DNA of 32,418 nt from Candidatus Altimarinota bacterium (GTDB lineage Bacteria; Patescibacteriota; Gracilibacteria; UBA4473): assembly GCA_027028725.1 (NCBI GenBank), contig JALVIB010000006.1, positions 1 to 32,418 on the forward strand, in the 5' to 3' direction. A program made the translations under genes and the position numbers. Each line of letters opens with the position of its first letter. The first letter of the stretch is position 1. The notes under the pieces are model-generated. The model saw only the letters and a list, made by a program, of their open reading frames with translations. It was not told the DNA's origin and made no database searches. Below are positions 11,763 through 21,206 of this stretch, in pieces.

Positions 11763-12773
11763 ATGTCTAAATCAAATTTTGAAAACATAGGAAATCCTCA
11801 AAGCGTTGAGGATTTTTTAAATTTCGCGGGATTTTTGCTGAAAGAGTTTAAAAATCCCACTCTGGAAGCAGAATTACTTTTATCCTTAGCGTTAGAAAAA
11901 GATCGCGTTTGGCTAAAAACTCATCATGATTACCTTCTAACAGCTGACGAAGCACGAAAATCCCGCGAATTTTTGGAACGCCGCAAAAACCACGAGCCGT
12001 TGGCTTATATCCGTGGTTGGAAAATGTGGTGCGACATGAAAATCAAAGTTTCGCCGGATGTTCTTATTCCGCGCGATGAAACGGAAATTTTGGCGAATTA
12101 TATTTTAGGCAACAAGTCCGAACTTACCCAAGTCCGGACTTGCCCAAGTCCGGACTTAAATTTTTCGCGGGATTTTGAGCCAAAAACTATTTTGGATATT
12201 GGGACGGGAAGTGGTTGTTTGGCTATTTTTTGCGCGAAAAATTTCCCGCAGGCAGAAGTGACCGCAATTGATATTTCCCCCAAAGCTCTACAAATCGCCA
12301 AAGAAAACGCCCAAACTCATAAAGTGGAAATCAATTTTATTGAGTCTGATTTGTTAGAAAATATTCATATTTCTCCCCTCTTTAGACAAAGAGGGGAATT
12401 AAAGGGGTGTTTGAATAAAGATCAAACGCCCCCTAGCCCCCGCTTAATCTTAAGCGGGGGGACAAGCAGGGACCCACAAAATTTCGACATAATCATCGCC
12501 AACCTCCCATATGTTCCGGACGACATTGAAGTCACTGAAGATGTCAGAAAAGAACCGCATAACGCGATTTTCGCAGGAGAAGACGGTTTGGATTTAATTC
12601 GCCGATTGGCAGAGGAATTAAAATCCCGCGAAATTTCGTTTCATGAACTTTGGTTAGAGTTTTGGACTGCTCAAGAGAAAGAAATTAAGAAAATTTTTGC
12701 GGGATTTTCTGTTGAGTTCTTGCCTGATTTAAGTGGAGATACTTATTTCGCGAAGATTACTCTAGAAAAGTAA
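11763..12773 (+). CDS. prmC: Peptide chain release factor N5-glutamine methyltransferase, with repeat-derived insertions
   Basis: Methylates the GGQ glutamine of release factors. Motifs: YIRGWKMWCDMKIKVSPDVL (PrmC N-domain into the hinge), RDETE, SAM motif TILDIGTGSGCLAIFCAKNF, VTAIDIS and catalytic IIANLPYVPDD (N-L-P-Y in place of N-P-P-Y). 336 residues is about 55 longer than usual. Two insertions explain it: residues about 117-140 (SELTQVRTCPSPDLNFSRDF), encoded by AAGTCCGGACTT palindromes plus a motif, and residues about 204-239, encoded by C/G hairpins. Removing them leaves about 278 residues, the normal size. Four exact motif copies are in the gene. Whether it remains active is unknown, but all core residues are kept. 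Confidence 0.9.
   Translation: MSKSNFENIGNPQSVEDFLNFAGFLLKEFKNPTLEAELLLSLALEKDRVWLKTHHDYLLTADEARKSREFLERRKNHEPLAYIRGWKMWCDMKIKVSPDVLIPRDETEILANYILGNKSELTQVRTCPSPDLNFSRDFEPKTILDIGTGSGCLAIFCAKNFPQAEVTAIDISPKALQIAKENAQTHKVEINFIESDLLENIHISPLFRQRGELKGCLNKDQTPPSPRLILSGGTSRDPQNFDIIIANLPYVPDDIEVTEDVRKEPHNAIFAGEDGLDLIRRLAEELKSREISFHELWLEFWTAQEKEIKKIFAGFSVEFLPDLSGDTYFAKITLEK
12114..12176 (+). repeat. AAGTCCGGACTT palindromic repeat plus motif, in frame in prmC
   Basis: Nearly three tandem 16-bp units (AAGTCCGGACTTGCCC type) followed by AAATTTTTCGCGGGATTTT. It is related to the repeats at 21121 and 31311 and encodes about 21 residues before the SAM-binding motif. Confidence 0.75.
12374..12461. repeat. 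Two GC hairpins inserted in frame in prmC
   Basis: Hairpins CCCCTCTTTAGACAAAGAGG/GG (12375-12396) and CCCCCGCTTAATCTTAAGCG/GGGG (12437-12460), with linkers AAAGGGGTGTTTG and CAAACGCCCCCTAG that also pair. This is the intergenic hairpin family found here inside a reading frame, between the helix ending SDLLENI and the strand NFDIIIANLPY. Confidence 0.75.
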
Positions 12774-21120: not shown

Positions 21121-21206
21121 CTAGAAAAACAAGTCCGGACTTGGCACAGAAAAAAAGCTTTTTAAGTCCGGACTTAAGTTTTTCTGCGAAAATTTCGCGG
21201 GATTTT
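21121..21206 (+). repeat. 86-bp repeat with two AAGTCCGGACTT palindromes and a motif
   Basis: CTAGAAAAACAAGTCCGGAC opens the repeat and it ends in CTGCGAAAATTTCGCGGG plus ATTTT. It matches 31311-31397 except for one inserted G. The CAGAAAAA and TTTTTCTG arms pair around the second palindrome. The region before it (21033-21120) has GTTAATAGTTAAGAGTTAAA-like short repeats and a motif at 21102. Confidence 0.8.

Follow-up and report, generated by a model that had tools for sequence, protein, structure and literature searches.

Two dispersed palindromic repeats lie in frame within the prmC gene of a Patescibacteriota genome

How does the gene for a translation enzyme come to encode a protein with two extra stretches, and what becomes of the enzyme? 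The question is raised by prmC in a stretch of 32,418 nucleotides (the window) from a Candidatus Altimarinota bacterium (Patescibacteriota, class Gracilibacteria; assembly GCA_027028725.1, contig JALVIB010000006.1, positions 1 to 32,418). The source genome is one MAG of 1.04 Mb in 94 contigs, 99.6% complete. PrmC is known from other bacteria to be important for growth. The ORF at this locus scored 201.7 bits against TIGR03534 (cut-off 199.1), with the match split over two stretches, and a PrmC_N domain was detected in its product. It is prmC, and by family its product would methylate the glutamine of the release-factor GGQ. With a probability of about 0.86, this gene received two independent in-frame dispersed palindromic repeats, which are tolerated as flexible loops. 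The features discussed are listed in Table 1.

Table 1. Features of the prmC locus and related repeat copies in the window (strand "." where none is assigned)
Feature	Position	Strand	Basis
prmC, release factor glutamine methyltransferase, 336 aa	11763..12773	+	profile matches; predicted fold closest to E. coli PrmC 2b3t
Insert 1 relative to relatives, ~51 nt = 17 codons, residues 118-134	12114..12164	+	linker 37 vs 18-28 aa; low-confidence loop
A element, 44 nt; AAGTCCGGACTT palindromes at 12114 (one mismatch), 12130, 12146	12114..12157	+	outer pair spacing 32 nt
SAM-binding motif DIGTGSG, residues 145-151, intact	12195..12215	+	residue conservation in alignments A1, A2
Insert 2 relative to relatives, ~102 nt = 34 codons, residues ~204-237	12372..12473	+	linker 95 vs usually 61 aa; pLDDT 49-59
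Double-hairpin repeat, ~97 bp: two C/G hairpins, G-run and C-run between	12369..12465	+	genome copies; folding
Catalytic NLPY motif, residues 247-250, intact	12501..12512	+	invariant in alignments A1 and A2
B motif in prmC, read as FAG	11822..11833	-	ungapped vs relatives
B motif AATCCCGCGAAA, read as SRD, on pre-existing residues	12163..12174	-	alignment without gap
B motif in prmC, read as SRE	12622..12633	+	ungapped vs relatives
B motif directly past prmC stop codon	12777..12788	-	motif position
A element, intergenic copy	21131..21175	.	window
A element palindromes, copies outside ORFs of at least 120 aa	31293..31366	.	window

The first-pass annotation had put the excess at about 55 residues, and the comparison bears this out, as family orthologues mostly have 272-289 aa against 336 aa here. 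Compared with the family, the stretch ahead of the SAM motif is 17 aa longer and the one ahead of NLPY 34 aa longer, each gain being a multiple of three nucleotides. Linker 1 (PRDET to DIGTGSG) is 37 aa long here and 18-28 aa in all 14 anchorable family members; three of the 17 family loci were not anchorable, and L027 (13 aa, with an in-frame stop) and the partial L028 were uninformative. Linker 2 (GTGSG to NLPY) measures 95 aa, against 61-64 aa in 13 of the 14; in the remaining member, G012, it has 77 aa, with the extra residues sitting elsewhere. In a wider set from many phyla, in which 61 of 80 loci could be anchored (6 of the 80 being from genomes already among the family members), linker 1 had 16-28 aa in 57 and linker 2 had 58-63 aa in 56. 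Conserved unrelated sequence at the insert positions, which the first-pass annotation had named as evidence against its reading, was seen in no orthologue set, neither in the family nor at the 61 anchorable loci. Within the family, a C/G hairpin occupies the insert 1 site in the prmC of G006, and C/G-rich hairpin-like inserts were recognised by eye in one Doudnabacteria and one Chloroflexi PrmC. Polarised by family-level comparison only, the extra segments would be insertions in this lineage, not ancestral sequence lost from the relatives. No target-site duplication was identified at the prmC inserts.

As had been proposed, each extra segment is a copy of a dispersed repeat. Insert 1 contains an A element, a 44-nt unit in which the palindromes are offset by 0, 16 and 32 nt. 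The 1.04-Mb genome has 126 exact copies of the 12-mer AAGTCCGGACTT (reversed control, 0), and 19 family relatives have 0-20 copies each. Single-strand DNA folding of the prmC copy gave z = -6.8. The GpmI encoded by this genome contains KSGLTQVRTTPSPDL, a counterpart of the insert 1 peptide KSELTQVRTCPSPDL, as an addition to the sequence of solved GpmI, and an A element in ArgS is likewise additional. Residues 117-140 had been attributed to palindromes plus a motif. The palindromes stand, but the insert ends at about residue 134 and the FSRDF motif is not part of it: in the alignment SRDF (135-138) is matched, with no gap, by SRDF, PRSF or PRKF in the relatives. As a separate observation, the 32-nt spacing of A pairs was found in five of seven pairs inside ORFs of at least 200 aa and in one of 17 elsewhere (Fisher 0.0027; hand counts), the spacing outside large ORFs being mostly 33-35 nt. 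Inverted flanks specific to the A element were considered and dropped: own pairs scored 19.5 and cross pairs 16.7, 0.44% of permutations were as high, and the signal came partly from shared B motifs.

The repeat in insert 2 has three other copies in the genome (94-100 bp, 87-92% identity). All three are intergenic: one 3′ of a glyA-like ORF, one between two ORFs on contig C43 and one between purL- and purQ-like ORFs, the gene names being assigned by reading except for PurL. The earlier statement that these hairpins occur elsewhere only between genes thus holds for the full copies, but not for related hairpins, which are found inside many genes. Folding of the repeat as single-strand DNA gave z = -9.1, with three hairpins. 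One of the six frames is open in the prmC copy and none of the six in each of the intergenic copies.

Strong hairpins could also mean that the inserts are never translated, the ribosome bypassing them or the RNA being removed. Mobile bypassing elements are known elsewhere and lend this some plausibility. However, bypassing would not need expansions that are both multiples of three and free of stops, nor an open frame in the prmC copy alone out of four, and we regard it as highly improbable. Insertion followed by translation is the better reading. The 44-nt AAGTCCGGACTT element (+17 aa) and the double hairpin of about 97 bp (+34 aa) would have entered prmC independently, each in a linker that leads directly into one of the core strands of the methyltransferase sheet, and would be translated as extra flexible loops of PrmC. 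They would be tolerated because the frame is kept and no stop is introduced, and their effect was presumably near neutral.

The SAM motif and NLPY were said to be intact, and this is confirmed. D145 and G147-S150 are invariant in alignment A1; in alignment A2, G149 and G151 are invariant and D145, G147, T148 and S150 nearly so. In an AlphaFold2 model built on 52 sequences, the core blocks mostly reached pLDDT of about 94-98, and both inserts were low-confidence loops (pLDDT about 49-59), which is the usual outcome for any unaligned insert, so that the model is no proof of tolerance. Foldseek placed the E. coli PrmC-RF1 complex 2b3t at the top of its matches (TM-score 0.91 over the target). Residues 118-134 precede core strand 142-146 in the model and residues 204-237 precede strand 240-246. 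From general Rossmann topology we infer that both loops exit on the face opposite the catalytic pocket. PrmC is thus probably an intact enzyme to which two floppy loops have been added. The unusual length might instead mark a decaying pseudogene that tolerates junk. This is hardly tenable for an unbroken frame of 336 aa with invariant catalytic residues and about 42-53% identity, on either side of insert 2, to many family relatives. Nor was a second full PrmC found in the genome, the other matches being short stretches over the repeats. The prmC product probably retains its activity, and the repeats may be selfish, that is, mobile.

The earlier account implied that prmC was an oddity, and here it does not hold, since the AAGTCCGGACTT element and related hairpins are present in many genes. 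Of the 152 ORFs of at least 200 aa in a 310-kb sample, which covers 30% of the genome, 26 contain at least one of the tested repeats in frame, the gene set being a greedy ORF list and not an annotation. They include ValRS, PheT, IleRS, a MurG-like protein, RuvB, MutL, a PBP and transketolase, as well as GpmI, ArgS, PheA and PurL. Known domains were recognised by Pfam in 14 of 19 repeat-bearing ORFs and no match was obtained for the other five; two of the 26 (3844 and 1929 aa) were outside the scan. Three different repeats are present in GpmI; comparison with solved structures reveals two of them as additions, and the remaining one is in an unaligned stretch. Some repeats lie near protein ends, as at the N-terminus of RuvB, where the start codon may be misplaced. 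ORFs of at least 200 aa make up 74% of the sample and contain only 13 of 45 A elements and 20 of 63 C/G motifs. Such a depletion is expected if most insertions are purged. Across the genome, repeats would be removed at the majority of coding positions and persist where they are free of stops, in frame and in permissive loops.

The recurrence of the insert 1 peptide in several proteins could be taken to mean that the inserts are adaptive, as selected functional loops (binding, for example, a modified release factor or the ribosome) that resemble repeats by chance. In a few PrmC from other phyla the corresponding linkers are indeed long (33, 51, 56 and 72 aa for linker 1; 87 and 138 aa for linker 2). 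However, these peptides are shared with unrelated enzymes, spacers contain the same DNA, and the inserts of the other lineages have, by eye, no obvious sequence in common with those of prmC. Selection for loop function is accordingly very unlikely, and we retain insertion of tolerated repeats.

A further set of observations concerns the B motif, the 12-mer AATCCCGCGAAA (extended form AAAATCCCGCGAAAWTTT). It is present in 673 + 665 copies in the 1.04 Mb (reversed control, 0). None of 287 other genomes of the class has more than three copies. Exact copies in the sample (416) exceed those with one mismatch (280), and half of the sampled copies are inside ORFs. From its copy number, the excess of exact copies, the share in ORFs and the ungapped columns in prmC, the B motif resembles a DNA uptake sequence. 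The same genome encodes a ComEC homologue. Other much-repeated perfect palindromes in the own-genome sample (L031-L050 plus the window) were GACGGCGCCGTC, CAGGTCGCGACCTG and GGTCACGTGACC, with 0, 2 and 0 sites, respectively, in ORFs of at least 200 aa.

What could have moved the double hairpin? ValRS of the same genome (L032 4501-7794) contains a whole in-frame DUF559 nuclease domain (Vsr-like) with adjoining hairpins and B motifs. Hairpins were scored within 200 bp, with C/T-only (or A/G-only) arms of at least 7 containing at least 4 C (or G). All three DUF559 copies in the genome have hairpins nearby, on both sides in two; in ValRS the scored hairpin is on the right side only and a degenerate one is visible on the left. 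In the class set, which comprised 43 loci (the three own copies and 40 of 51 matches in relatives, 11 being excluded as weak, partial or unfetched), a C/T-rich hairpin lay within 200 bp of the domain at 35 and on both sides at 16. Random stretches of the same loci gave 27 of 529 (both sides, 0 of 529), PrmC matches 0 of 24 and gene boundaries 0 of 26. The criterion was tuned on this class set; an earlier version (runs of four C/G, arms of at least 7, 160 bp) scored 27 of 43 and missed the own copies L148 and L197. Applied unchanged to the phylum set outside the class, from which five weak partial matches and matches without a fetched locus were excluded, the final criterion scored hairpins at 20 of 20 DUF559 loci, on both sides at 14. 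The corresponding controls were 18 of 294 random stretches (both sides, 0 of 294) and 0 of 5 gene boundaries. Overall, the random-stretch rate was 5-6% and the gene boundaries gave 0 of 31.

DUF559 lies within an ORF of at least 300 aa at 10 of the 43 class loci, with a scored hairpin at eight of the ten. The hosts are ValRS, UvrC (two genomes, different sites), Elp3 (two genomes), IleRS, RibE, an AroA-Nudix fusion, a lamin-tail-like protein and the N-terminus of MiaA, all named by reading except ValRS. UvrC site 1 was readable in 8 of 17 genomes, the other nine showing an 11-aa misaligned stretch. It spans 29-38 aa in six relatives, 50 aa, including a short hairpin peptide, in the genome studied here, and 176 aa in G015, where the order is hairpin, DUF559, hairpin. 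UvrC site 2 holds a GNAT-like domain in five genomes and a nucleotidyltransferase-like domain in another (domain names by reading). One UvrC site in the family genomes (L198-L214) is an insertion hot spot, with nothing, DUF559, a nucleotidyltransferase-like or a GNAT-like domain depending on the genome. At L226, outside the class, an in-frame fusion places DUF559 ahead of a Dxr-like enzyme (name by reading), with hairpins on both sides. A different domain, the histidine phosphatase PF00300, was observed inserted at residues 712-856 of IleRS in the genome studied here (L047 4128-7907); this domain is apparently also present in the IleRS of G008, which contains DUF559 as well.

Insert 2 of prmC has no nuclease inside, and by eye its hairpins are of the same class as the DUF559 flanks. 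Insert 2 may be related to hairpin-DUF559 elements as a form without the nuclease. We tentatively propose, as a possibility somewhat short of even odds, that Patescibacteria carry a mobile element made of a DUF559 (Vsr-like) nuclease ORF with C/T-rich hairpins at its ends, which would enter genes in frame without splicing, and that the prmC double hairpin is its MITE-like form. Clean terminal inverted repeats, judged from the orientation of the third G/C run, were rejected at the DUF559 loci for inconsistent polarity. Against the proposal, a fixed inverted polarity of the hairpin ends was not found at these loci (left, 17 inward and 11 outward; right, 12 inward and 10 outward; the rest none or both), other domains occupy UvrC site 2, and the single Y1_Tnp gene in the genome could act instead. 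Mobilisation by RAYT proteins has been proposed for REPs, and that gene might move the hairpins with no role for DUF559, which would change the mover and not the insertions. We consider this unlikely, as by eye insert 2 lacks a GTAG or CGTC tag and C/T-rich hairpins flank DUF559 instead. The A element is without a candidate mover.

Several known systems are comparable. Rickettsia palindromic elements (RPEs) are short dispersed palindromic repeats that are tolerated in frame in conserved genes, with several families per genome; the hosts include tRNA synthetases and DNA repair genes and the repeat peptides map on structures as added stretches (PMC3767692, PMC2229807), and the effect on activity was tested for gmk (PMC2229807). 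The prmC repeats work like RPEs, being in-frame palindromic repeats in conserved ORFs and spacers of one genome, which is not to say that they are RPEs. They differ in the phylum, in a much shorter A element, in the presence of two families in one gene and in a hairpin class linked to a nuclease ORF. Intragenic GTAG/CGTC REPs are similar in that singles and dimers lie in frame, encode 20-30 aa and are often found in repair genes (uvrA, uvrB) and tRNA synthetases (PMC3733652); unlike them, insert 2 has no tag and the coding partner near its hairpin class is DUF559. The intrastrand triplex motif (TM, TMECO) is also an abundant, highly repeated C-run hairpin followed by a further G-run, with inverted pairs, and TMECO is reported to be always intergenic in E. 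coli K-12 (PMC4666352). Insert 2 shows, by eye, a C-tract, a G-tract and a mirrored third G-tract, but it is intragenic, does not match the E. coli consensus letter for letter and is a candidate for triplex formation. Stand-alone VsrA, a DUF559 or Vsr-like PD-(D/E)XK nuclease, belongs to the same domain family as the ORFs between hairpins (PMC12907096), whereas DUF559 here is flanked by hairpins and sometimes lies inside other genes. In the literature searched, limited to open PMC papers, no account of hairpin-flanked DUF559 was found. RPEs and intragenic REPs are the precedent, and the prmC case is a variant in another phylum.

In-frame palindromic repeats in proteins have been a classic Rickettsia curiosity. 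That about one in six large sampled ORFs is hit in a reduced candidate-phylum bacterium suggests that this outcome is more general among small genomes, and prmC raises the question of how proteins absorb random peptides. What moves such hairpins is a question posed by many repeat families, and the recurrent pairing of C/T-rich hairpins with DUF559 offers a testable candidate. Domain architectures in such genomes, as where a tRNA synthetase contains a nuclease, can arise through insertion. If the proposed element exists, essential enzymes such as ValRS, IleRS, UvrC and Elp3 would carry a nuclease domain derived from a mobile element.
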